A stretch of DNA of 64,000 bases from an uncultured Eubacteriales bacterium (lineage in GTDB: Bacteria > Bacillota > Clostridia > Lachnospirales > Lachnospiraceae), in NCBI GenBank assembly GCA_900319795.1, contig ONPU01000001.1, positions 288,941-352,940 on the forward strand, given 5' to 3'. Below, in pieces: positions 51,718 through 63,618 of this stretch; the first letter of the stretch is position 1; each line of letters starts with the position of its first letter. The notes under the pieces were generated by a model. The model did no database searches. It worked only from the letters and a program-made list of their open reading frames with translations, and was not told the origin of the DNA. Both the position numbers and the translations under genes were made by a program.

Positions 51718-53802
51718 TTATTCCTGCCCAAGAAGCGGCGTCAGGCAGTCCATACTGAGGAGAACAGTAGATCCGTTATGCAGTAAAGCTGATACTGCCG
51801 GAGGCAGAAGGCCAAATGCACCGAGAGCAATCAGAGCTCCGTTAAAGCCCATTACAAAGCGGTAATTGCGGCCGATTCGCCCCATCAGCTTTTGCGACAG
51901 CTTCCGAATAAGTACCAGTTCTCTCAAATCCTCCGCCGCGATGGTGATATCCGCAACCTCCCTGGCAACACCGGCGCCGCTTCCGATAGCGATTCCTACG
52001 TCTGCCAGAGACAGTGCCGGGGTGTCATTGATGCCGTCCCCGACCATGATCATACACCGTCCCTCGTCCTTCATTGCACGGACAAACGCGGCCTTTTCTT
52101 CAGGAAGAACTTCCGCGCGGTAATCGTCAACGCCCAGTTCCTCAGCGATCTGACGGGCTGTATTCTGATTGTCTCCGGTCAGCATCACAATGTGACGAAT
52201 CCCGGTCTCTTTAAGAAGCGCCTTCATTTCTCCCGCTTCAGGCCGCAGCGGATCACTGATTCCTATGGCTGCGGACAGCACCCCGCCAATGGCAAGATAA
52301 AGCCAGGAATAGTGCGCTGAAAGATTCTCAAAGGCTTCCCGATCATCGGGAAGTACATTGACGGCCTCATCCTCAAAGACAAAATGCCGACTGCCGATGA
52401 CCACTCTTTCTCCTCCGATTCTGGAGGCGATTCCATGGGCGACCACATATTCAACCTCGCTGTGCATTTCCTGATGGTCAAGTCCCTGTTCTTTTGCAGC
52501 CCTGACCACTGCGTTTGCGACAGAATGCGGAAAATGTTCCTCCAGACAGGCTGCGACCCGCAGCATTTCTTCCCGGTCCCGGCCATGGAAGGCTACCACT
52601 TCCGATACCGTTGGACAGGCATTGGTCAGTGTTCCGGTCTTATCAAAAACCACGGTATCTGCCCGGCTGAGGATTTCCATGAATTTTCCGCCTTTGACAG
52701 TAATCCTGTGCCGGCTCGCTTCCCGCATGGCAGAAAGGACGCTCAGAGGCATGGACAATTTCAACGCGCAGGAGAAATCCACCATCAGTACCGAAACAGC
52801 TCTGCTTGTGTTTCCCGTTAACAACCATGTCACAGCACTTCCGGCAAGGCACCAGGGAACCAGCTTGTCAGCCAGGTTGTATGCTCGTACTTCGCTGTTC
52901 GATTTCAGCCGTTCCGACTCTTCGATCATGCGAACGATTCGGTCATATCGGTTTTCTCCGGCAGTATGTGTAACGAGAACGACACAATTTCCTTCTTCTA
53001 TGACAGAGCCCGCATAAACCGCTGCCCCCGGACGCTTTGCGACCGGAACGGATTCTCCGGTAAGAGAAGCCTGATTGACCATCACATCTCCGTCATCGAT
53101 GATTCCGTCCAACGGCAGAACATGTCCGGTATGGACGATGATCCGGTCCCCTTCGCAAATCTGTGAAAGCGGCACCTCTTCCTGATGTCCGTCTTCCATA
53201 AGAAGCCAGACCCGGTCCACATTGAGAGACATGTTCTTCGCAAGATCGTCTACGGACTTCTTGTGAGTCCACTCATCCAGCGTATCGCCGAGCCTCAGGA
53301 GAAAACGGACTGATCCGGCAGTGGAAAAATCACCTGTAAGAAGAGAAACTCCGATGGCAATACCATCCAGAACTTCTACGTTTATTTTTCCCCGTGCCAG
53401 TGTTTTGGCCGCGAGCCATAAACGCGGAACCGCATTGACCGTATTTATCACCTGCTTAAGCGGCATTGGAAAAAACAGCCTTTTTGTATAGTGCCACAGC
53501 ACCTGAAAAACCATTTTTTCCTTATACTCCCGATTGATACGGCGGCTTAAAGAGCTGAATACATGGCACACCTCTTCCGCTTTCTCATAGGAAAAACGGG
53601 AAAGTTCGGCATAAAGGTCTTCCCTGCTTCCGTTAAAAAGAATCGTCAGGGTACAAAGCCGTTCATGCACTGTCACATGCTCAACAGAGGGAAACGCCAT
53701 GACCCAGGCTTCAAGAAGATCCGCCTGTTCCATGCTCATCGCGTATTGGACAGCTTTAAGGCGTACCCTTCCCGGACTTTCATGGAGAATCCGGAATCTC
53801 AT
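51718..53802 (-). CDS. P1B-type heavy-metal-transporting ATPase
   Basis: A 694-residue metal-translocating P-type ATPase. The actuator TGES is at 248-251, the phosphorylation site DKTGT is at Asp387, the P1B-specific His-Pro pair is in EEHFPHSVAN, and the hinge is VGDGINDTPAL. The TM metal site that is usually CPC, SPC or CPH reads DFSCALKLS (Ser344-Cys345-Ala346), and the N-terminal 75 residues form an HMA-like fold without CxxC. The transported metal is therefore uncertain. It ends the HMA, DUF6110-like, ATPase operon and overlaps the DUF6110-like gene by 4 bp. Confidence 0.92.
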   Translation of the reverse strand: MRFRILHESPGRVRLKAVQYAMSMEQADLLEAWVMAFPSVEHVTVHERLCTLTILFNGSREDLYAELSRFSYEKAEEVCHVFSSLSRRINREYKEKMVFQVLWHYTKRLFFPMPLKQVINTVNAVPRLWLAAKTLARGKINVEVLDGIAIGVSLLTGDFSTAGSVRFLLRLGDTLDEWTHKKSVDDLAKNMSLNVDRVWLLMEDGHQEEVPLSQICEGDRIIVHTGHVLPLDGIIDDGDVMVNQASLTGESVPVAKRPGAAVYAGSVIEEGNCVVLVTHTAGENRYDRIVRMIEESERLKSNSEVRAYNLADKLVPWCLAGSAVTWLLTGNTSRAVSVLMVDFSCALKLSMPLSVLSAMREASRHRITVKGGKFMEILSRADTVVFDKTGTLTNACPTVSEVVAFHGRDREEMLRVAACLEEHFPHSVANAVVRAAKEQGLDHQEMHSEVEYVVAHGIASRIGGERVVIGSRHFVFEDEAVNVLPDDREAFENLSAHYSWLYLAIGGVLSAAIGISDPLRPEAGEMKALLKETGIRHIVMLTGDNQNTARQIAEELGVDDYRAEVLPEEKAAFVRAMKDEGRCMIMVGDGINDTPALSLADVGIAIGSGAGVAREVADITIAAEDLRELVLIRKLSQKLMGRIGRNYRFVMGFNGALIALGAFGLLPPAVSALLHNGSTVLLSMDCLTPLLGQE

Positions 53803-54062
53803 GCCTTCGCACCGTCTTCGATATAAGCAGCCTCTTCTTTCACCGCTCTCGATTCATTGATTGCCTTTGCGTCAGCCAGAATATCCGCGCAGCTCTCCTG
53901 GACATTTTCCACATCGTTCATGACCTGGTCTTTGCAGCGCAGCGCAGCTGCCGTAACATTGGTATACACTTTACGCGCGTCTTTACTGGCAAGCAGTTTG
54001 AAACCTGCGGATCCGAATAATGTACCTCCTGCAAATAGTGCGATTTTTCCTGTCAAACTCAT
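53799..54062 (-). CDS. Small DUF6110-like protein
   Basis: An 87-residue protein with an N-terminal hydrophobic, Gly-rich segment (LTGKIALFAGGTLFGSAGFKLLAS) followed by KDARKVYTNVTAAALRCKDQVMNDVENVQESCADILADAKAIN, an amphipathic helical tail. This pattern fits DUF6110, small proteins that accompany heavy-metal ATPases. The start at 54062 is preferred to upstream ATGs because AAGGAGGAG is correctly spaced only for it. The stop overlaps the ATPase start. Role unknown, possibly an ATPase accessory subunit. Confidence 0.72.
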   Translation of the reverse strand: MSLTGKIALFAGGTLFGSAGFKLLASKDARKVYTNVTAAALRCKDQVMNDVENVQESCADILADAKAINESRAVKEEAAYIEDGAKA

Positions 54063-54159
54063 ATTCATCTCCTCCTTGTATTTGACCGGCATCTGCCGGA
54101 TCATTACTTTTACTGACGTGTAACATTTAACTTCTGCCCTTCCAAGTCAGAGGACCCGC

Positions 54160-54414
54160 TCATATCAGTCCGAATAGCCCTTTCTTTTCATAGGCAGCCG
54201 ATTCTATGCCAAGGCAGGTATATCCAGTGGCATCGACTGTTTTTTTCAGACTATCCGAATCCACGGGCTCCTCAGTCAGAAAGGATGCTTCCTTTTTGCT
54301 CCTTGAAGCCGAGACCTTCTTTGCTTTCGGAACAGCTTTACGAATGGCTTCGCACACGTGAGCCTCACACATGCTGCACATCATTCCGTCAATTTTCAGC
54401 GTTGTTTTAATCAT
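54160..54414 (-). CDS. HMA-domain metallochaperone-like protein
   Basis: An 84-residue protein with a heavy-metal-associated domain: TTLKIDGMMCSMCEAHVCEAIRKAV, metal-binding Cys13 and Cys16 in the MxCxxC motif. It resembles CopZ-type chaperones that load P1B ATPases. The start at 54414 has AAGGGGGA just upstream. The open frame extends 17 codons further upstream, but that part derives from a decayed methyltransferase gene (54442-54534) and is not expected to be part of this protein. First gene of the metal operon. Confidence 0.85.
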   Translation of the reverse strand: MIKTTLKIDGMMCSMCEAHVCEAIRKAVPKAKKVSASRSKKEASFLTEEPVDSDSLKKTVDATGYTCLGIESAAYEKKGLFGLI

Positions 54415-54441
54415 GGATTCCCCCTTGCTTACAAGTCCTTT

Positions 54442-54534
54442 AGGAAGCGTAGAATACGTCATCATCCCGTCATAGAAGCTTGCATTTCTTCAGGTCAGTT
54501 TATAGGCACTTTTAATCTGTTCTTTTCTGGTCAT
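54442..54534 (-). pseudogene. Remnant of a SAM methyltransferase gene 5' end
   Basis: The reading frame MTRKEQIKSAYKLT-stop-RNASFYDGMMTYSTLP is almost the same as the first 31 residues of the intact methyltransferase at 59886-60566 (MTRKEQIKSAYKLTGSNASFYDGMMTYSTFP). DNA identity is high, including the upstream GAAACGGAGA. A TGA replaces the Gly codon and similarity ends after Pro31, where the HMA gene's leader begins. A duplicated, truncated gene. Confidence 0.88.
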
Positions 54535-54709: not shown

Positions 54710-54762
54710 GTTAGTAATGTCTAACCGTTATTTATTTTATTCCTTCCACTGACGAAAATCAA
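54710..54762 (-). promoter_or_regulatory. Promoter and GTTAG-N6-CTAAC operator, copy 1
   Basis: Minus strand: TTGATT (54757-54762), 17 bp, TAAAAT (54734-54739), then the inverted repeat GTTAG-N6-CTAAC (54710-54725) overlapping the expected start of transcription. This drives the HMA/DUF6110/ATPase genes. The whole arrangement recurs at 63566-63618. Position of the repeat suggests repression. Confidence 0.75.
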
Positions 54763-54851
54763 GTAGCCTAATATCTCCGAAGAAACGCTTCTCAAAAATG
54801 ATATTGTGCCTGTTTGTCGGTTGATGTGCCGGAGTTGCTCTTTTCATTGGA

Positions 54852-56594
54852 TCAGATGCTCCAGCCTGCGCTGGCATTCTGCAGCTGCGTCATGCGTCTG
54901 AAAAGGCTGTTTTCATTTGCAAAGAGTTCTGCCGGGCTTCCTTCTTCGGCCACCTTGCCATCCGAAAGAACAACGATCTTATCCGCCGCTTCCACAGTAC
55001 GCATACGGTGGGCGATGACCAGTACCGTTTTCCCTAAGAGCAGCCGTGACAGCGCGCCTTGCACCTTAGTCTCGTTCTCTACGTCAAGAGAAGCCGTCGC
55101 TTCATCCAGGAGCACGATCGGTGCATTCTTTAAAAGTGCACGGGCAATAGAGATCCGCTGGCGTTCTCCTCCGGAGAGCTTTGCTCCGTTTTCTCCGATG
55201 GGCGTGGCATAGCCCTGCGGAAGCTTCTCTACGAACTCGTCACAGTTGGCTGCTCTGGCGGCGGCCAGAACCTCTTCATCTGAAGCACCGTACTTGCCCA
55301 AGCGGATATTTTCCATTACGGTATCGTCAAACAATACCACATCCTGGAACACCATGGAGTAATCGGTCAGCAGCGTTTCCGGGTCGATATCTGCTATGTT
55401 CACACCACCGACACGGATGGTACCGCTGTCGATATCCCAAAGTCTTGCAGCAAGCCTGGCGCAGGTGCTCTTGCCGGAGCCGGAAGGGCCGACCAGTGCG
55501 GTCACTTCGCCCTCTTTCGCTGTAAAGCTTACACCACGCAGGACCTGTTCATTGTCGTAAGCAAAGCCCACGTTTTCAAAGACGATATCATGTCCATCCG
55601 GTGCAAAGCTGTCAGCCCCATCGGCGGTCTTCGCATCGTAGATCTCCATCAGACGGCTGGCGGAAACCTGGGACATGAACATCTCGGCAATCAGGGCCAG
55701 AGCCTGATCGAAAGGCGCATAGACACGGGTGATCACTAACAAGAACATAAACAGCAGCATGAAATCGATCTGGCCGGAAAGGATCATACTCGTACCTGTC
55801 AGTATTGTTGTCGCTACACCAAGGCGCATGATCACACTGGCCGCATTGACAAAAATACCGGTGGACAGCTCGCCGTGGATCATCGTTCTTTCGTGGCGGT
55901 CGATCTTTTCATTCAGCTCCTGCAGGAAGCGGCCTTCCTGATTCGTAGCACGGATCTCCCGGATGTTTTCCAGGGTTTCCTGAATGCCGTCAGACACCTG
56001 AATTCCCGCTGCTTTTGTGATCTCTGAATTTTTCTTTGCCAGCTTGCGGCTTCCGAAAAGGAGAGCAAAAGCCACCGGAACGCCCCACAGGCAGGCAATA
56101 GCAAGCTTCCAGTTATAAATAAAGAGTCCGACAGCAATAATCGCGGTAGAAATATACGATCCATACAAATATCCCAGGCAATGGGACCAGACGTGCTCCA
56201 GCCGGTTCACATCGCCCATGATGGTCTCTGTCAGGTCTGCAAGATCGCGCTTCCCGAAATAGCCAAGGGGCAGCTTTCTTAAGCGCTCGGCAATGCTGAT
56301 GCGGACCGCTTTGACTTCGCTGTATACCAGGCCATAGGTCGTGCGATACTGCTGCATATGTGTGATCAGGGAAAGGACCACGAAGGCAAGCACCAGCAGG
56401 ATAAAGGTAAGGGCATTCGGAAGCGGCGCACCGGTCGTTAATGTGTCCATGAACTTCGTCATGAGGAGATACAGGATGCCCATTCCGCCCATGACCACAA
56501 GGTTCACGATCACAGTGAAGACCGTCCCCTGTTTTGTGTTCTTTATGCCCTGGTCGGTAAGCGCGTATTTACGCTGAAAATCTTTTCCGAACAT
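54852..56594 (-). CDS. ABC exporter-fold half-transporter (TMD-NBD), IrtB/YbtP-Q-like
   Basis: A 580-residue half-transporter with six TM segments in the first 320 residues and a C-terminal ATPase: Walker A GPSGSGKST, signature LSGGERQRISIARALL, Walker B VLLDEATASLD. It forms an obvious heterodimer with the product of the upstream gene, whose stop overlaps its start. The start at 56594 has GGAGG 7 bp upstream; a further upstream start would lie inside the partner gene. Family: exporter-type ABC proteins including the Ybt and Irt siderophore systems. A 70-bp gap separates it from promoter copy 1. Confidence 0.9.
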   Translation of the reverse strand: MFGKDFQRKYALTDQGIKNTKQGTVFTVIVNLVVMGGMGILYLLMTKFMDTLTTGAPLPNALTFILLVLAFVVLSLITHMQQYRTTYGLVYSEVKAVRISIAERLRKLPLGYFGKRDLADLTETIMGDVNRLEHVWSHCLGYLYGSYISTAIIAVGLFIYNWKLAIACLWGVPVAFALLFGSRKLAKKNSEITKAAGIQVSDGIQETLENIREIRATNQEGRFLQELNEKIDRHERTMIHGELSTGIFVNAASVIMRLGVATTILTGTSMILSGQIDFMLLFMFLLVITRVYAPFDQALALIAEMFMSQVSASRLMEIYDAKTADGADSFAPDGHDIVFENVGFAYDNEQVLRGVSFTAKEGEVTALVGPSGSGKSTCARLAARLWDIDSGTIRVGGVNIADIDPETLLTDYSMVFQDVVLFDDTVMENIRLGKYGASDEEVLAAARAANCDEFVEKLPQGYATPIGENGAKLSGGERQRISIARALLKNAPIVLLDEATASLDVENETKVQGALSRLLLGKTVLVIAHRMRTVEAADKIVVLSDGKVAEEGSPAELFANENSLFRRMTQLQNASAGWSI

Positions 56595-58423
56595 TACTGC
56601 ACCTCCTTTTTGGCGGATACAGACACTGCGGGATCCACCTGCGAGATCCGCCATTTGACCGCCTGATTATATTCTTTCCACATCCGGGCATACAGGCCGT
56701 TTGCCTGTACCAGCTCTGCATGGGTTCCTTCCTCAGAGACCTTTCCGCCGTCCAGTACGATGATCTTGTCCGCGCTGACGACAGTGGACAGTCGATGGGC
56801 GATCATGATGACCGTGCGTCCTTTTGTAAGCGTCGCAAAGGCCTTCTGGATCATGGCTTCGTTTTCAGGGTCGGCAAAGGCGGTAGCCTCATCAAGAACA
56901 ACGATGGGGGCATCCTTCAAGATGGCTCTTGCCAGTGCCACACGCTGCTGCTCTCCGCCGGAAAGATAAGTTCCTTCCGTCCCGATGACAGTATCCATAC
57001 CGTCCGGCAGTTTTTCCAGGATGTCATCGCATTGTGCTGCAGTAAGCGCTGCCTGCACCTCTTCACGGCTCGCTTCCGGGCGGGATGCTCTGACGTTCTC
57101 CAAAATACTGGTCTTGAACAGACGGTTATTCTGGAAGACAAACGCTACCTGATCCATCAGCACATGAGGATCGGCATCTCTGACATCAACACCACCCACA
57201 AGGACACTTCCGGAGCTGACATCCCAGAAACGGGGAATCAGGCTCGCAGCCGTTGTTTTGCCGCCGCCGGAAGGCCCGACCAAGGCTGCCGTCTGTCCGG
57301 GCTCCACCTTGAAGGACACACGATCAAGGGCAGGGATCTCTGCTCCGGCGTAAGTGAAGCTGACATTCTTAAATTCCACACTGTTGTCTTTCGGAACCTG
57401 GGGATTGTCTGTGATCTTAAGGACTGGCGCACTCATGACCTCGCTGATCCTTCCAAGTGCCGTGCTGGCCAGCATCATGCCGCTGGCGGCAAACATGATC
57501 TTTGCCAGCGCTGTGGAGATGATGGCAGAAAACACCGCATAGAAAGCAAAGTTGGTAACAAACCCGGCAAAGCTGCCGGAGTTAAGCGCTGCCGGTGCCA
57601 GAAGGAGTGCCACAGGAACCAGAAAGACAAAGGCTCCTTCGGTAAAGGTCAGGTTCACGGACTGGGGCACCTTGCAGACATCAGCCTGATAATGCTCTGC
57701 CTTTGCGCTGTAATCTTCGATCGCCTGCTTAAATGCCTTAAAGGAATATACGGTCTGCTGGAACACCTTGACCACGGGGATCCCGCGGACATATTCCGTA
57801 CCCGCTTTACTCATTACATCCTGGGCTGCCTGGTATTCCGCCATGAGCCCGGCATTTTTTCCGCCCATCATCGTGGCCATGGCCGCGACAGATACCACCG
57901 CTGCCAGCAGGCAGGAGGCCCCCATACGCCAGTCAAAAACAAACATCAGGACCAGCATGGCAATAAACATGGCCACCGTTCCGACGATGTCTGCCAGGTT
58001 GTGGGCAAGCAAGGTTTCCGTTTCGGAGGCTGCTCCGTCCAGACGGTTTCGAAGAAGCCCGGAAGCATTGGAATCGAAGAAGCCCAAAGGCGTCTTCATG
58101 AGATGCTTCATTCCGGCCTTACGGATATTGGAAGCCGTCCGGAAGGCCGCCAGATGCGTACACATGAGTGCCGCGAAATAAACAACGATCCCTGCTACGG
58201 CTAATCCAAAGGCCATCCAGCCATATTTCGCAATACCCGCAGCTTCTGTCCAGTTCGGTGCGACGGCGATCAGATCCCGTGCAACAAGCCAGATGCAGAT
58301 GTACGGGAGCATCCCGAGCACCATGGCAACTGCGGAGAGTCCAAGGCCCAGGAATGTCAGGCCTTTAAAGCTGCCAGTATATCCAAGCAGCACGGCCAGG
58401 TCGCTTTTTTTCTTTTCTTTCAT
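56594..58423 (-). CDS. ABC exporter-fold half-transporter (TMD-NBD), IrtA/YbtP-Q-like
   Basis: A 609-residue half-transporter: six TM segments, Walker A GPSGGGKTT, signature [17 protein letters not shown], and Walker B plus D-loop IVVLDEATAFADPENEA. The AFADPEN D-loop in place of the common ASLD is shared with YbtP/YbtQ and IrtA/IrtB, exporter-fold transporters that import metal-siderophore complexes. First gene of a two-gene operon, with operator copy 3 about 50 bp upstream of its start. Substrate unknown; metallophore transport is an inference from family resemblance and neighbouring metal genes. Confidence 0.9.
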   Translation of the reverse strand: MKEKKKSDLAVLLGYTGSFKGLTFLGLGLSAVAMVLGMLPYICIWLVARDLIAVAPNWTEAAGIAKYGWMAFGLAVAGIVVYFAALMCTHLAAFRTASNIRKAGMKHLMKTPLGFFDSNASGLLRNRLDGAASETETLLAHNLADIVGTVAMFIAMLVLMFVFDWRMGASCLLAAVVSVAAMATMMGGKNAGLMAEYQAAQDVMSKAGTEYVRGIPVVKVFQQTVYSFKAFKQAIEDYSAKAEHYQADVCKVPQSVNLTFTEGAFVFLVPVALLLAPAALNSGSFAGFVTNFAFYAVFSAIISTALAKIMFAASGMMLASTALGRISEVMSAPVLKITDNPQVPKDNSVEFKNVSFTYAGAEIPALDRVSFKVEPGQTAALVGPSGGGKTTAASLIPRFWDVSSGSVLVGGVDVRDADPHVLMDQVAFVFQNNRLFKTSILENVRASRPEASREEVQAALTAAQCDDILEKLPDGMDTVIGTEGTYLSGGEQQRVALARAILKDAPIVVLDEATAFADPENEAMIQKAFATLTKGRTVIMIAHRLSTVVSADKIIVLDGGKVSEEGTHAELVQANGLYARMWKEYNQAVKWRISQVDPAVSVSAKKEVQ

Positions 58424-58470
58424 AAACTGCCTTCCTTTTCTTTGATTTTAAATGAATATATCCCGGGACG

Positions 58471-58486
58471 ATTAGTTTTAGCTAAC
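58471..58486. promoter_or_regulatory. Operator copy 3 (ATTAG-N6-CTAAC) upstream of the ABC pair
   Basis: ATTAG, 6 bp, CTAAC, matching the operators at 54710 and 63566 except for one half-site base. It is centred about 55 bp before the ABC start codon, upstream of AT-rich -10-like hexamers (TATATT, TAAAAT), so it could be an activator site here. Confidence 0.55.
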
Positions 58487-58497
58487 TATCGGCCGGT

Positions 58498-58535
58498 AAA
58501 AAACGCTTTCTCATTCTGCAGACCTGGAAAGCGTT
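58498..58535 (-). terminator. Terminator of the MBL-peptide operon
   Basis: Minus strand: AACGCTTTC, 16-nt loop, GAAAGCGTT running into TTTT. It ends 9 bp after the 35-residue peptide gene and separates that operon from the ABC pair. Confidence 0.85.
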
Positions 58536-58543
58536 ATTATTGT

Positions 58544-58651
58544 CTATTTCTTTCCTACAAGCAGCATAAACGCCAGAAAAGCAATCACAGTTCCTCCTGC
58601 CAGCCCGTACACCATGCTCTTCGGTACCCAGTTTTTATAATCCGGTTTCAT
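58544..58651 (-). CDS. 35-residue single-span membrane peptide
   Basis: A short gene whose ATG overlaps the stop of the MBL hydrolase gene (ATGA) and has AAAGGTGG 7 bp upstream. The product starts MKPDYKNWVPKSM, followed by one hydrophobic, Gly-containing helix VYGLAGGTVIAFLAFMLLV and ends GKK, giving a positive cytoplasmic or membrane-surface end. A terminator follows directly. I do not recognise the family; length, coupling and terminator support a real gene. Confidence 0.7.
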   Translation of the reverse strand: MKPDYKNWVPKSMVYGLAGGTVIAFLAFMLLVGKK

Positions 58652-59514
58652 CTGACTGCCACCTTTCTGAGAAGAACACTTCTTGCGCTCTCTTCCGTAT
58701 CATCGTCCTCGATATATCCGTCATACGGAGCTGACGGATCCGTATATTTCTTGGTGAACGGTTTGCAGATCTCTTTTCTGTGCCGGAAGGCAAAGTCCAG
58801 ATCATCTGTCCATCCGGTATGTCCGGTAATGATCTTGATCGGCTGGCGCCTTGAGCGGAGGTTCTTCTCCAGCTTCTCAAGAGACTGTACCGCCAGCTTG
58901 TTGTCCTCCGCCAGCGTACTGATGAAGCTGTAGCCGCCGTCCGCACCGAACCAGATCGTATCTCCGGTGAAAAGATACTCGTCATCGATCAGGTAGACCA
59001 GGTGGCCCCAGGTATGCCCGGGGACCAGGATACACTCAATTTTGATATCCCCGATATGTAACACTTCACCGTCTTTCAATAGCGTCCTTCGGTTATCCGT
59101 TTTGACCATCGGCAGCTTATATGCCCCATGGAACACCTTCCTTCTGACCTCGCCGGTCAGGTACCGGTTTTCTATCTCCCCGATATACACCATTGCGTCT
59201 TTGAACAGAAGCTTGCTGTCCCGCTCCAGGGCACCGACATGATCTGTATCCTGGTGAGTAATCAGGATATGCCGGATCGCCGCCGGATCCAGGTCCAGCC
59301 AGCCCATTTTTTCCTGCAGACGTGCATAGTTGTAGCCTGCATCGATCATGATGGTGGTGCCGTTCTTCGTATAGAAGAAGATGTTGGCGATCCACTCCCG
59401 GACGCAGCTGACGTGCTCATCGATCCTGCCCGTGTTCAGCGGTTTGAAGATCGCCTTTCCGCGGAACAGCATACTCATCGATTTCTTTTGATGTTCCGAA
59501 TCTTTTCGTGCCAT
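58648..59514 (-). CDS. MBL-fold metallo-hydrolase
   Basis: A 288-residue metallo-beta-lactamase-fold protein. Metal ligands: HQDTDH at 87-92 (variant of HxHxDH in which the first His is kept), HTWGH with His167, and FTGDT with Asp185, followed by a His near 235 in ITGHTGW. Such proteins hydrolyse diverse esters, lactones or thioesters. The start has AGGAGG upstream. It is part of an operon of small membrane proteins and hydrolases; no substrate can be assigned. Confidence 0.88.
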   Translation of the reverse strand: MARKDSEHQKKSMSMLFRGKAIFKPLNTGRIDEHVSCVREWIANIFFYTKNGTTIMIDAGYNYARLQEKMGWLDLDPAAIRHILITHQDTDHVGALERDSKLLFKDAMVYIGEIENRYLTGEVRRKVFHGAYKLPMVKTDNRRTLLKDGEVLHIGDIKIECILVPGHTWGHLVYLIDDEYLFTGDTIWFGADGGYSFISTLAEDNKLAVQSLEKLEKNLRSRRQPIKIITGHTGWTDDLDFAFRHRKEICKPFTKKYTDPSAPYDGYIEDDDTEESARSVLLRKVAVR

Positions 59515-59526
59515 ATCTGATTCCTC

Positions 59527-59871
59527 CTAAAAAAGCAATACGATGATTTCGGCAACAATGGCCGCCCCGGCGATCCAGATCAGCGTCAGGATTCCGCGTT
59601 TCTTCAGGACCTGAGGCCAGGGTTGTACGAATGGGATCTCTTCTGTGCCGGGTATGATCCAGAACCGGCTGTGGCCGACCCACAGACGGTCGATCACGAT
59701 CCCGTCGTACCAGTTCATAACCTCAAGGAAGAGAAGCGCCTGCAGGTATGCCGGAAGGAAGTCATGCACCCCATTCCAGACGCGGATGATCAGAATCAGA
59801 GCTGCCGCCATGACTGCGAAAAAGGCTGTCATAAAGCGTTTCCGGTCGATCGGCAGGTCTTTTTCTTTCAT
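59527..59871 (-). CDS. Small membrane protein with WxGHxxxWIIPGTE motif (paralogue 1)
   Basis: A 114-residue protein with TM segments at about 14-32, 42-58 and 93-113. The loop MNWYDGIVIDRLWVGHSRFWIIPGTEE (53-79) is shared with the 164-residue protein at 62059-62553 (MNLIDRFLIDEYWIGHTKAWIIPGTED). The conserved Asp, His, Arg/Lys and Glu suggest a functional site. I do not know the family name. The gene lies between the methyltransferase and the MBL hydrolase, with 10-15 bp gaps on each side. Confidence 0.75.
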   Translation of the reverse strand: MKEKDLPIDRKRFMTAFFAVMAAALILIIRVWNGVHDFLPAYLQALLFLEVMNWYDGIVIDRLWVGHSRFWIIPGTEEIPFVQPWPQVLKKRGILTLIWIAGAAIVAEIIVLLF

Positions 59872-59885
59872 GTCCCGAAACTCCT

Positions 59886-60566
59886 TTACTTCTTGCAGCA
59901 GAAGCAGCCGATTCCTTCCACCGCCGTGACCTCGGCCTCCTGATAAAGGCCGGAAAGCCTGGTGCGGAGGCTTTGCTCCGTCTCAAAGGGAGGCGAGAAA
60001 AAGCCCTTTGGGACGTAAAGATGCCTTATGAACCAATCCGTTCGCTTATGGCCGCCCTGCACATAGAAGCAGCCGCAGAAGGTTCCGCCCGGTTTCAGGA
60101 CACGGTAGGTTTCGCGGTAAGCGGCCTCCTTGTCCGGGAAGGCGTGAAAGCCGTTCAGGGACAGCACAATATCGAAGCTTTCGTCTTCAAAGGGCAAGGC
60201 GCTGACGTCGCCTTGCAGGAAGGTGATATTTTTGAGCCCGAGAGCCCCGGCTTTGTCCTGCGCCGAGGCCATCATGTTCTCCGAATAATCCAGGCAGGTG
60301 ATGTCCGCGTCCGGAAGCTCCCGGTAGACCGGCATGGTCAGCACGCCCGTCCCCACGGGGACTTCTAAAAGCCTTCCGGTGAAATCCTCCGGAATACCCG
60401 ACAGCGCCTTTTCCAGATACCGGAGGTTCTTTTCGCCGTCCATGTTCCAGACGATCCGGCAGATCGCCTTCCCGGGGAACGTGGAATACGTCATCATCCC
60501 GTCATAAAAGCTCGCATTGCTGCCGGTCAGCTTGTAGGCACTTTTGATCTGTTCTTTTCTGGTCAT
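59886..60566 (-). CDS. Class I SAM-dependent methyltransferase
   Basis: A 226-residue methyltransferase of the Methyltransf_11 (UbiE-like) type. The SAM motif I reads LLEVPVGTGVLTM near residue 66, with Pro-Val in place of the usual Gly-Cys/Ser; then LDYSENMMASAQ (motif Post I), GDVSALPFEDESFDIVLSLNGFHAF and RVLKPGGTFCGCFYV. The start at 60566 is favoured by GGAGA 6 bp upstream over ATG at 60572. A truncated duplicate lies at 54442-54534. Substrate unknown; C-terminal CFCCKK is Cys-rich. Confidence 0.88.
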   Translation of the reverse strand: MTRKEQIKSAYKLTGSNASFYDGMMTYSTFPGKAICRIVWNMDGEKNLRYLEKALSGIPEDFTGRLLEVPVGTGVLTMPVYRELPDADITCLDYSENMMASAQDKAGALGLKNITFLQGDVSALPFEDESFDIVLSLNGFHAFPDKEAAYRETYRVLKPGGTFCGCFYVQGGHKRTDWFIRHLYVPKGFFSPPFETEQSLRTRLSGLYQEAEVTAVEGIGCFCCKK

Positions 60567-60579
60567 GACCATTCTCCGT

Positions 60580-61218
60580 TTATGTATGATTTAGCTTCTT
60601 GTATCCGCAATCACAGTACGTGCCGCCGGAAGCCAGGGTATATTCCCGTACGAACGCCGATGCGCCGCCTGCCTCGCTCATGGTGTAGTCCAGACGGCAC
60701 ATCGCGGGAACCAGTTTGAAAAGCCCTAACTCCTTCATCAATGTGCAGATACCGCAGGTCGTAAACCGCGCTTCATAGCCGCTCCCGTCTGGATAGGGAA
60801 GGTATTCCATGTTCCAGGAGTAAGGGTTCCGGTCCGCAGCTTTCAAAGCCGCAGTGGCCTTCATCCCCTGAAGATCCTTTTCGCTGAATTTCTTCTTTCC
60901 GCTCATCCGGCAGAACCACTTCATAGGGGCGGTCATCATGGATGCCCGATAGTACTCCGTTGTCTTTTCCACCGTCGGTCTTTCCGGCAGATTCAAAAGA
61001 AAAGAGGAAAGCATCGCGCAGTTGACAATATTCATTTTGAATCGGTCTGACTTCTCGAATTCCGGAAGGCGGCCGATGATCTCTTTATACTTCGGCTTTG
61101 CTTTTGCAGCGATCGCCCTGGCCGTTTCAGGATCATACCCGTAAACCGCCGACAGCTGTTTCCGAAACGATCCTCCAAACAGAAGCCACATGCCCATTGG
61201 CATTCCAACGTATTTCAT
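60580..61218 (-). CDS. L-2-amino-thiazoline-4-carboxylic acid hydrolase family protein
   Basis: A 212-residue protein resembling the ATC hydrolase family (PF14196), named for a Pseudomonas enzyme that opens the thiazoline ring on the way to L-cysteine. The fingerprint is in the C-terminal 60 residues: TTCGICTLMKELGLFKLVPAMCRLDYTMSEAGG, then YTLASGGTYCDCGY, with four conserved-looking Cys. Many members in gut Clostridia have no proven substrate, so catalysis is uncertain. The start at 61218 has GGAG 9 bp upstream; longer starts run into the preceding gene. Confidence 0.75.
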   Translation of the reverse strand: MKYVGMPMGMWLLFGGSFRKQLSAVYGYDPETARAIAAKAKPKYKEIIGRLPEFEKSDRFKMNIVNCAMLSSFLLNLPERPTVEKTTEYYRASMMTAPMKWFCRMSGKKKFSEKDLQGMKATAALKAADRNPYSWNMEYLPYPDGSGYEARFTTCGICTLMKELGLFKLVPAMCRLDYTMSEAGGASAFVREYTLASGGTYCDCGYKKLNHT

Positions 61219-61232
61219 CTCATTGGTCTCCG

Positions 61233-62000
61233 TTAACTGCGTGGGTCCATAAACTCGTCGATTGCCTGCAGCACCGGTGCGGTGTACTGCTCTCCGCCGA
61301 AAAGCCATTGCTCATGCTGCATATCGAATTCCCGGATCTCCGGGTCCCGGAAATACTTCTTATAACGATTCAGATACTTCTCGCCCATCTTGTTGGCATA
61401 AATGAAATGGACCTTGGTGCCCTCCACGTGGATATCGTCCTTCAGCCAGGTGAGCAAATCCGTGTAATACTCGTTTTTAATGGACTCCGGATTGAATTTG
61501 GAAAAGCAGCCCATGAACCGGTCCGCTGTCTCGTCGTCCATTTCAAAAAAGTTCTTGAGCTTTTCTCTGGTTTTTGCTTTCTTTTTCTCGCTCTTGGTAA
61601 AGCTGGTCAGAAGCGGTACAACCAGTTTTGACTGGAGCCAGGCGCTGAATTTCCCGCTCTGGTCCAGATCCGGGCTTCCGAAAATACCGTGATCGAGATG
61701 GACCTTTTCCCGCTGGATCAGCTGCCCCACAAAGGTGCTTCCTAAGGAGGAGCCGATCGCGCCGTTCAGGCGACCTCCGAAATGATTCTGAATATATGTT
61801 TCAATCTTCTCAGTAACCGTAATGATGTCCGGAAAGATCAAATCACTGCCGTCAAAACCATCGTAGTTCACGCAGATCAGGTGATATTTCTCGCCCAGCC
61901 GGTCCAGCACCGCAGCAAAGTTCGTCTGATAGTCACAGGCCGTCCCCGGCAGCAGCATAAGGGTCTTTCCGTCCTGTTTTCCCATTTCCACAAATTCCAT
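61233..62000 (-). CDS. Alpha/beta hydrolase
   Basis: A 255-residue alpha/beta-hydrolase-fold protein without signal peptide. LLPGTACDYQTNF (17-28) is the oxyanion-hole region, AIGSSLGSTFVG carries nucleophile Ser85 in GSSLG, and HEQWL near residue 231 supplies the likely catalytic His. A long cap insertion at about 105-170 is Lys/Glu-rich. It could be an esterase, lipase or thioesterase. It lies 14 bp upstream of the ATC-hydrolase-family gene in the same operon. Confidence 0.83.
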   Translation of the reverse strand: MEFVEMGKQDGKTLMLLPGTACDYQTNFAAVLDRLGEKYHLICVNYDGFDGSDLIFPDIITVTEKIETYIQNHFGGRLNGAIGSSLGSTFVGQLIQREKVHLDHGIFGSPDLDQSGKFSAWLQSKLVVPLLTSFTKSEKKKAKTREKLKNFFEMDDETADRFMGCFSKFNPESIKNEYYTDLLTWLKDDIHVEGTKVHFIYANKMGEKYLNRYKKYFRDPEIREFDMQHEQWLFGGEQYTAPVLQAIDEFMDPRS

Positions 62001-62058
62001 TTATCATATCTCCTCTGTTCTTCGTTTGTTATGACTCATACCATCTTCCGCTCCTTTC

Positions 62059-62553
62059 TCATTTCAGCATCAATGCCATGATCCCGGAGAGAATGGCGGC
62101 AAGAAGCGCCATCCCTGCGGTCCCCATGATCCATTTTTTCTTTTTGTCTTCCGCCGTGATATACGGCCTTAAGTCTTCCGTACCCGGGATGATCCAGGCT
62201 TTCGTATGACCGATCCAGTATTCGTCAATCAGAAAACGGTCGATCAGATTCATAATGAACAGGATCACAAAGCCCTGCCAAAACCCTGCGAAGAAACCTC
62301 TCGCGCCGTTGATCACGTACACACAGATCAGCACATAGATCAGATATCCCGGAAGACACAGGCTTCTGAAAAGCACACTCCGCTTCCGGACCTCCTCCGC
62401 GGTCGTCAGGCCGAGCTGAACAACGCGCTCCTGTACCTTTTGATCATACAGATGGACCATACCGATCGCGCCGTTTCGGATGCCGATCGCACAGATCAGA
62501 TACAGCAGAAAGCCCAGTCCGAGGCCTTCCAAAATGAGCTTTAGCGCAATCAC
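62059..62553 (-). CDS. Membrane protein with WxGHxxxWIIPGTE motif (paralogue 2)
   Basis: A 164-residue protein with about four TM segments (5-25, 66-84, 90-106, 142-162) and a cytosolic basic/acidic loop at 35-60. It carries MNLIDRFLIDEYWIGHTKAWIIPGTED (101-127), the same motif as the 114-residue protein at 59527-59871. It starts with GTG overlapping the stop of the upstream gene (GTGA) and has GGAGG 7 bp before it. Function unknown. Confidence 0.75.
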   Translation of the reverse strand: MIALKLILEGLGLGFLLYLICAIGIRNGAIGMVHLYDQKVQERVVQLGLTTAEEVRKRSVLFRSLCLPGYLIYVLICVYVINGARGFFAGFWQGFVILFIMNLIDRFLIDEYWIGHTKAWIIPGTEDLRPYITAEDKKKKWIMGTAGMALLAAILSGIMALMLK

Positions 62554-63269
62554 CTGTAAGCCTCCATTTCGTCATTTTTGATCGCCCGAATTCCCCCGAG
62601 GAACATCACGATCCAGCCAAGGCTTTCAAAGCCGGACGCAAAGCCGTTGAAGGGCAACGGAAGGATCATTTCCAACAGAAATCCGATTCCGGCAACGAGA
62701 AGCGGAGCCGCCAATACCCAGCTTTTTTTCAGCGGCAGAATTCCCTTTAGAACGAGAGCGATCCAGCCGCCGGTGGAGGCGATCCCCAGCACGACAAACG
62801 ATACCCAATAGGAAAAGGCCTGCACCGCGTAAGAACGGTTCCAGGCTGCCACAGCTCGCGCAGTATCGCCCTGTGCCGCTTCATAAATAACGTTGTAGTT
62901 GTGGATCAGCGTTCCGCAGGCCAGGTGGAAATATATGAAAACCATGCAGCCCCAGATCAGCCCTGCGATATAGAGCTTCAGGAATCGTCTGTCCCATTTG
63001 TCGCTGCACTGAGAAAGCCTGTATTTCAGATATTCTATGAAACTCAGAGCCGCAATCGCATAGAAAACCGTTCCGATCAGGCTGCCGATATTGGAAAGCG
63101 CAATGCGCCAGTCTGCAATTGTGAGCCAGCCGGAAGAAATCATAAAGGAAATGCTCGTGCTGCCTTTCGGCTCGATCCCCATACAGTAGTCGCCGATGAT
63201 GGCAAGAATCAGGCCGGGAATGATCCATAGCATCCGTTTACATATCTTCGTGCGTTGTTCTGCTGTCAT
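62550..63269 (-). CDS. Polytopic membrane protein, probably DUF6796
   Basis: A 239-residue protein with about seven TM segments. The segment IIPGLILAIIGDYCMGIEPKGSTSISFMISSGWLTIADWRIALSNIGSLIG near the N-terminus, with GD, a polar loop and WR.ALS, and the C-terminal PLPFNGFASGFESLGWIVMFLGG fit what I recall of DUF6796. The start at 63269 (GGAGG upstream) is chosen over a longer frame beginning at 63314 that overlaps the preceding remnant. Function unknown. Confidence 0.65.
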   Translation of the reverse strand: MTAEQRTKICKRMLWIIPGLILAIIGDYCMGIEPKGSTSISFMISSGWLTIADWRIALSNIGSLIGTVFYAIAALSFIEYLKYRLSQCSDKWDRRFLKLYIAGLIWGCMVFIYFHLACGTLIHNYNVIYEAAQGDTARAVAAWNRSYAVQAFSYWVSFVVLGIASTGGWIALVLKGILPLKKSWVLAAPLLVAGIGFLLEMILPLPFNGFASGFESLGWIVMFLGGIRAIKNDEMEAYR

Positions 63270-63310
63270 CCTCTTTCCTCCGTTTTTCCTTCGATTGCAG
63301 GTGTACAGCT

Positions 63311-63517
63311 TCAACCTCTTCGATAAAGCGTTCCGTACTTCTCAAGAGAGACGAACTCAGTGCCGAGCTCATCGTGCCCATCGGCAATGAAGAGATACAC
63401 ATGATAGTCCTTCGCCATTTCCTCTGCGGAAGCCTTGAACACCCACCAGGGCTCGACCGCACACTGAAACATGACAAAAGATTGCGTATGTCCTTTTCCA
63501 AACTCATATACCTTCAT
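63311..63517 (-). pseudogene. Truncated alpha/beta-hydrolase N-terminus
   Basis: A 68-codon frame beginning MKVYEFGKGHTQSFVMFQCAVE and containing the strand-turn pattern KDYHVYLFIADGHDELGTEFVSLEKY, which resembles the first 65 residues of alpha/beta hydrolases. It ends at a stop before any nucleophile elbow. The start overlaps the stop of the 9-codon leader (ATGA). Probably a gene remnant, though a short peptide is possible. Confidence 0.55.
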
Positions 63518-63543
63518 TTTCTAATGATCCGCTCAATACTCAT
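63514..63543 (-). CDS. 9-codon leader ORF at promoter copy 2
   Basis: MSIERIIRK then TGA, the stop overlapping the next ATG. It parallels the start of the frame at 54549-54686 (MSMEQLIRK) after the matching promoter, so it predates the duplication. No strong Shine-Dalgarno. Confidence 0.3.
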   Translation of the reverse strand: MSIERIIRK

Positions 63544-63565
63544 TTATAAAAATCTGATATGTTGC

Positions 63566-63618
63566 GTTAGCTGTATCTAACCGTTCTCCATTTTATTCCA
63601 TCAACAGACGAAAATCAA
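63566..63618 (-). promoter_or_regulatory. Promoter and GTTAG-N6-CTAAC operator, copy 2
   Basis: Minus strand: TTGATT (63613-63618), 17 bp, TAAAAT (63590-63595), then GTTAG-N6-CTAAC (63566-63581). The hexamers, spacing and flanking CTTGATTTTCGTC are the same as copy 1 while the spacer and the six bases between half-sites differ. It drives the eight-gene operon down to 58544. Confidence 0.78.

Follow-up and report, generated by a model that had tools for sequence, protein, structure and literature searches.

A conserved TTAG-N6-CTAA palindrome in a Lachnospiraceae genome and its clostridial relatives as the putative operator of a DtxR-type iron regulon

Which regulator reads the three copies of a palindrome, [GA]TTAG-N6-CTAAC (N6, six unspecified bases), that lie before three gene units of an uncultured Eubacteriales bacterium of the Lachnospiraceae, and to which signal does it answer? 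The copies, here called operators 1, 2 and 3, are found on contig ONPU01000001.1 of assembly GCA_900319795.1, in a stretch of 64,000 nucleotides (contig positions 288,941 to 352,940) that we call the window. A preliminary description of this DNA had proposed that a Crp/Fnr protein encoded at the right edge reads the sites, and had named the DtxR/MntR family as an alternative reader. We found that the palindrome is conserved with its exact spacing in related genomes, where it accompanies dtxR and iron genes, and that the three sites are very probably operators of an iron regulon under a putative short repressor of the DtxR family.

Sequence matching located all three TTAG/CTAA sites in the window where they had been described, together with the twin promoters P1 and P2, which share the form TTGATT-17-TAAAAT (Table 1). 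It had also been claimed that the half-sites are kept and the inner bases are not; indeed, the copies at P1 and P2 agree at 10 of 10 half-site positions and at 2 of 6 inner positions. Because P1 and P2 duplicate each other, leaders included (77% identity over 112 nucleotides), the twin promoters are not independent evidence and count as one observation. Promoter-like consensus matches in the region are about as many as chance would give (9 versus 7.1 expected). Within the window TTAG-N6-CTAA occurs three times against 0.32 expected, a number that one of 100 shuffles reaches, and each other TTAG/CTAA spacing from 0 to 24 occurs 0 or 1 times. The whole 2.0-Mb assembly, which is 82% complete, contains five such sites, versus 41 for the reversed control pattern and fewer than the ~10 extrapolated from the window shuffles to 2.0 Mb. 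A genome-wide search therefore gave a divided answer: by count there is no excess of the motif in this 2.0-Mb assembly, but three of the five sites fall within 8.9 kb (P-value ~0.0006, simulation with uniform placement), and the motif is conserved in other genomes. The two remaining sites, one beside a gene judged LexA-like by eye (C10:65760) and one inside an open reading frame (ORF; C11:16394), were taken as probable chance matches; the relaxed pattern GTTAR-N6-YTAAC adds one further genome site (C10:49472). Both the total of five and the duplication of P1 and P2 would suit an explanation by chance matches and a copied promoter, with no regulator at all, an explanation to be judged against the other genomes.

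It is this conservation in other genomes that establishes the motif as real. Operator 3 precedes a pair of ATP-binding cassette (ABC) permease/ATPase genes, ABC1 and ABC2. For ABC1 the best 80 of 382 relatives were kept; by their record titles these loci come largely from rumen and gut metagenome-assembled genomes, and also from Butyrivibrio, Agathobacter and Ruminococcus bromii. TTAG-N6-CTAA was found 57 times in their upstream regions, which were searched over 300 bp ahead of the match, or over 155, 82 and 248 bp where the locus was truncated (three loci). Spacing 0 was found 13 times, at least some of these lying inside N6 sites such as GTTAGCTAACGCTAAC, and every other spacing up to 13 was found 0-3 times. 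The fuller pattern [GA]TTAG-N6-CTAA[CT] stands upstream of 47 of the 80 ABC1 genes. Butyrivibrio sp. AE2015 and Agathobacter ruminis are among the strains in which ABC1 has the motif. Among close relatives, three loci (L141, L142 and L144) keep the half-sites of operator 3 and have changed inner bases, a fourth (L143) has lost one inner base (spacing 5), and three more (L146-L148) have no site within 300 bp before ABC1. Phylogenetic footprinting thus bore out the proposed element, with the exact N6 spacing conserved before ABC1 in clostridial loci.

The genes behind the motif elsewhere point to metal homeostasis. A survey covered 41 genomes, namely this genome, 24 more of its genus and 16 of its order, and GTTAG-N6-CTAAC was present in 32. 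In loci fetched with the motif alone, the site lies before feoA, feoB, DUF2325, DUF3793, enolase, mntP-like, DUF6110 and P-type ATPase genes, and also at a dtxR gene divergent from feoA. Representative targets named by Pfam were FeoB, FeoA, DUF2325, DUF3793, DtxR, DUF6110, enolase and MntP, and further a methyltransferase, TetR and a periplasmic binding protein. A simple ORF test placed 249 of the 264 distinct sites between genes and 15 inside ORFs of at least 120 amino acids. This count leaves out 10 of this genome's loci and keeps some others of it; FeoA, DtxR or ABC1 queries had brought in part of the loci, which inflates the target counts of these three. The list appears to be mainly one of iron homeostasis, with some manganese overlap. 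One member unusual in a metal regulon is an enolase cluster of four genes behind the operator (L198:14842-16140, L027, L073; the representative confirmed by Pfam).

We found a DtxR-family gene in 37 of the 41 genomes, with one copy in this genome (PF02742; contig C22, locus L006), and the preliminary description's alternative reader is backed by several lines of evidence: operator sequence and spacing, co-occurrence, sites upstream of dtxR, and gene linkage. The 43 non-redundant dtxR upstream regions (two genes whose starts lie too near the locus end were left out) hold 11 exact sites, before 8 genes; of the spacings from 0 to 12, N6 is the only one represented. When up to one mismatch is allowed, these same regions hold 22 at N6 (14 genes) versus at most 2 at any other spacing. 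One of the 8 genes, L042, came from a motif query, but a family search retrieved it as well (L128). Across 148 genomes of the class, the mean number of sites was 2.98 in the 109 with DtxR and 0.72 in the 39 without (P-value 6e-8, which is optimistic because the genomes are related), and the reversed control pattern gave 2.02 versus 1.72 (P-value 0.23). Furthermore, among the sites listed (19 genomes, 16 of them DtxR-bearing), 12 of the 33 DtxR genes have a site no more than 1.5 kb away, versus 0.2 expected. Two loci are especially compact. In L282 (genome G168, same family) one strand carries two exact operators, dtxR, DUF6110 and a P-type ATPase gene with the SCA motif; L070 (G016, same genus) carries dtxR, an operator, DUF6110 and a P-type ATPase gene cut by the locus end, and its DtxR scores 24.3 bits in the C-terminal domain against a Pfam cut-off of 27, with the DNA-binding domain above its cut-off. 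These two loci unite the presumed regulator, the operator and the kind of target found at operator 1. Across the relatives, then, a DtxR-family gene is present, linked to the sites and co-occurring with them. Together with the spacing-specific conservation before the same gene in the 80 ABC1 loci, the spacing-specific sites upstream of dtxR genes and the co-occurrence and linkage of DtxR and site across genomes leave the explanation by chance and a copied promoter very improbable.

The same comparisons bear on the Crp/Fnr protein as reader. Its gene adjoins operator 2, and a 5-6-5 palindrome has the geometry of Crp/Fnr sites; however, 30 loci of its homologues hold a single strict site, the window's own, so that linkage in relatives is missing. 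Its helix-turn-helix domain was matched in 22 of 41 genomes of the genus and had no match in 19, copies of 82-100% identity occur in only three of them (G000, G020 and G051), and elsewhere the sites accompany iron genes and dtxR. We therefore regard this reader as hardly tenable. Fur, the usual iron regulator, was also considered and rejected: it was not found in this genome, at the stated completeness of 82%, and 30 Fur loci contain 0 strict sites. Fur was found in 25 of the 41 genomes and was not found in 12 of the 25 genus genomes. Of the preliminary interpretation, then, the operator, its three target units and the idea of repression at copies 1 and 2 agree with what was found; its Crp/Fnr reader and the activation ascribed to copy 3 are not supported.

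Besides the lack of a genome-wide excess, a number of observations weigh against assigning the sites to DtxR. Upstream regions of 33 of the 80 ABC1 genes are without the motif, and there is no excess of weaker versions in them. Among the 148 genomes, one or more sites were seen in 11 of the 39 that lack a PF02742 match, and strict sites are missing from 25 of the 109 that have DtxR. One of the 39 (G152) has 11 GTTAG-N6-CTAAC sites, possibly owing to a diverged DtxR or to another reader. Near-relative loci fetched by family show strict sites at 3 of 29 DtxR and 4 of 30 FeoA loci, and this comparison alone separates DtxR from Crp and Fur only modestly. In this genome dtxR has only a poor upstream site (ATTAGTTGAATCAAAC, two mismatches), and feoAB has no site by either the strict or the relaxed pattern; the regulon here may therefore be small or use weaker sites. 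Absence of Fur or of a second DtxR in this genome is also not certain, since the assembly is incomplete. It is because strict sites are few at the near-relative DtxR and FeoA loci that we place the DtxR assignment no higher than very probable. Four dtxR genes of the genus (L123, L124, L126 and L135) are preceded, at a distance of 49-76 bp, by variants (for example GTTAG-N6-TTAAT or GTTAA-N6-TTAAC) that are perhaps weaker autoregulatory sites.

The operator invites comparison with the DtxR/IdeR regulons of Actinobacteria. In the passages of PMC10317159 that describe it, the IdeR box TTAGGTTAGSCTAACCTAA has four repeats and binds two dimers, whose subunits occupy one repeat each. By our own count, TTAG-N6-CTAA occurs in this box at positions 1-14 (TTAG 1-4, CTAA 11-14) and again at positions 6-19 (TTAG 6-9, CTAA 16-19). 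Each such pair would be one dimer's share of the 19-bp box, a point on which those passages of PMC10317159 are silent. The clostridial sites have the TTAG/CTAA inverted repeat at the same 6-bp spacing as the IdeR box; a second staggered copy is found in 4 of 426 oriented sites, so that the full 19-bp box is not what they contain. Further likenesses are a site over the predicted transcription start, a DtxR-family protein with a Cys ligand, and iron-uptake targets. Where the actinobacterial box has two staggered copies of TTAG-N6-CTAA, the clostridial sites have one. They also differ in keeping a G ahead of the repeats and a C behind them, the protein is short, with Asp/Asn in place of Met10, and the host is a mid-GC Gram-positive (51% G+C in the window).

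The metal that this protein senses is less readily assigned. Low-GC Gram-positives, according to passages of PMC10317159, use Fur for iron and DtxR proteins for manganese. A DtxR-family protein reading the sites in answer to manganese, as in an MntR regulon, has several points in its favor. Like the MntR of Bacillus and E. coli, the clostridial protein is a short two-domain member of the family, and an MntR is its nearest relative among solved structures (6kta, E 6e-16). The best NCBIfam match is also MntR, below its cut-off, and mntP is among the targets. At the first ligand position (Met10) Asp/Asn stands instead of Met in 39 of 42 proteins, with Met in 3. However, 41 of the 42 have Cys at the iron-type position (Cys102), where MntR has Glu; these positions were numbered on a B. 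subtilis MntR sequence, and the Cys/Glu pairing is also seen in the 6kta alignment. The metal site thus appears to be a hybrid, with features of both the iron and the manganese type, and Fe(II) is judged the likelier signal. MntR operators have another sequence than the clostridial motif. Many feoA and feoB genes are among the targets (the FeoA counts being inflated by locus fetching), and Fur, as said, went unmatched in nearly half of the genus genomes. In passages of PMC10317159, moreover, the sulfur ligands of IdeR raise selectivity for Fe(II). On these grounds a manganese signal is unlikely, though by no means as improbable as a Crp/Fnr reader.

For an iron-responsive DtxR the following scheme may be proposed. 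When Fe(II) is sufficient, metal-loaded DtxR dimers, one per site, would block transcription by covering the transcription starts at P1 and P2 and by occupying the site ahead of the ABC pair. When iron is low, the ferrosome-like operon of HMA, DUF6110 and P-type ATPase genes, the ABC pair and the P2 operon would be released. Passages of PMC10317159 place the IdeR box of repressed genes over the transcription start or the -10 region. Copy 3 had been thought to activate from about -41, where we found no promoter-like match. In relatives the distance from the site to where the ABC1 match begins is mostly ~30-130 bp, which does not settle the regulatory mode. Operators also occur in pairs or triplets ~25-340 bp apart (L206, L217, L136, L143 and L146), hinting at cooperative or divergent control.

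The unit behind P1 resembles a ferrosome operon in its genes. It has a heavy-metal P-type ATPase with the SCA motif, a DUF6110 protein and an HMA protein; the SCA motif is characteristic of the P1B-6 class, FezB included. As in the fez operons of Clostridioides difficile and Desulfovibrio magneticus, an iron-linked transporter like FezB and a small membrane protein like FezA would here stand under an iron repressor. The repressor in C. difficile is Fur, whereas here it is presumed to be of DtxR type, and DUF6110 may correspond to FezA. Passages of PMC12574912 report that FezA and FezB are required for C. difficile ferrosomes and are repressed by Fur, and those of PMC10979944 describe FezC as a DUF4405 cytochrome. 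The P1 leader is separated from the HMA gene by a stop-interrupted remnant of a methyltransferase start (54415-54534, minus strand), like that of the gene at 59886-60572, which suggests that the duplicated P1 leader once stood before a methyltransferase gene.

The P2 unit includes membrane genes, and some of its homologues carry the motif in relatives too. The first ORF behind P2 (63311-63517, minus strand; 68 amino acids) has no Pfam match, but by eye its product resembles the N-terminus of an alpha/beta-hydrolase-like protein; L144 contains a stretch 90% identical to it.

Table 1. Positions of the operators, promoters and genes discussed (numbered within the window)
Feature	Position	Strand	Basis or remark
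Operator 1, GTTAG-N6-CTAAC, GTTAGTAATGTCTAAC	54710..54725	-	~+2 to +18 of P1; start predicted from the -10 box
Promoter P1, TTGATT-17-TAAAAT	54734..54762	-	consensus match, not evidence of function
Operator 3, ATTAGTTTTAGCTAAC	58471..58486	-	ATTAG-N6-CTAAC before ABC pair
Operator 2, GTTAG-N6-CTAAC, GTTAGCTGTATCTAAC	63566..63581	-	~+2 to +18 of P2; predicted transcription start
Promoter P2, TTGATT-17-TAAAAT, duplicate of P1	63590..63618	-	consensus match
Possible 45-residue leader ORF behind P1	54549..54686	-	ORF call
Metal-binding HMA-domain protein, first complete gene in the P1 unit	54160..54414	-	PF00403; start MIKTTLK chosen by eye
DUF6110 small protein	53799..54104	-	PF19605
Heavy-metal P-type ATPase, SCA-K motif (DFSCALKLSMP)	51718..53802	-	PF00122, TIGR01525; putatively FezB-like
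ABC2, second ABC permease/ATPase	54852..56654	-	PF00005/PF00664
ABC1, ABC permease/ATPase of the pair	56594..58423	-	PF00005/PF00664
P2 unit, predicted operon	58648..63314	-	ORFs and family matches
P2 unit members: DUF6796 protein, ATC-hydrolase family protein, methyltransferase, metallo-beta-lactamase-fold protein	within 58648..63314	-	family matches
Two P2-unit ORFs without Pfam match	62059-62553, 59527-59871	-	ORF list
Hydrolase-like ORF without Pfam match	61233-62000	-	ORF list; likeness by eye
Crp/Fnr protein, C-terminal helix-turn-helix, gene cut by contig end	63823..63999	-	PF13545; judged not the operator reader

A literature search returned no description of the motif or of DtxR control over ferrosome genes, which is weak evidence of absence as subscription papers fell mostly outside its scope. 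We lean, by a small margin of belief, towards the wider view that many gut and rumen clostridia run iron homeostasis through a short hybrid Asp/Cys DtxR that recognizes half an IdeR box, the part for a single dimer, and that its targets include a ferrosome-like operon which, in two relatives, has its own DtxR repressor. The motif, its targets and the genes present suggest that many clostridia have a DtxR-type iron regulon, in contrast to the low-GC Gram-positive rule as set out in passages of PMC10317159. They also provide a ready list of probably iron-controlled genes, including the function-unassigned DUF2325, DUF3793, DUF6110 and DUF6796 and an ABC pair of unassigned substrate. Through the dtxR-DUF6110-P-type ATPase clusters, it can be tested directly how commensals control their ferrosome-like operons.

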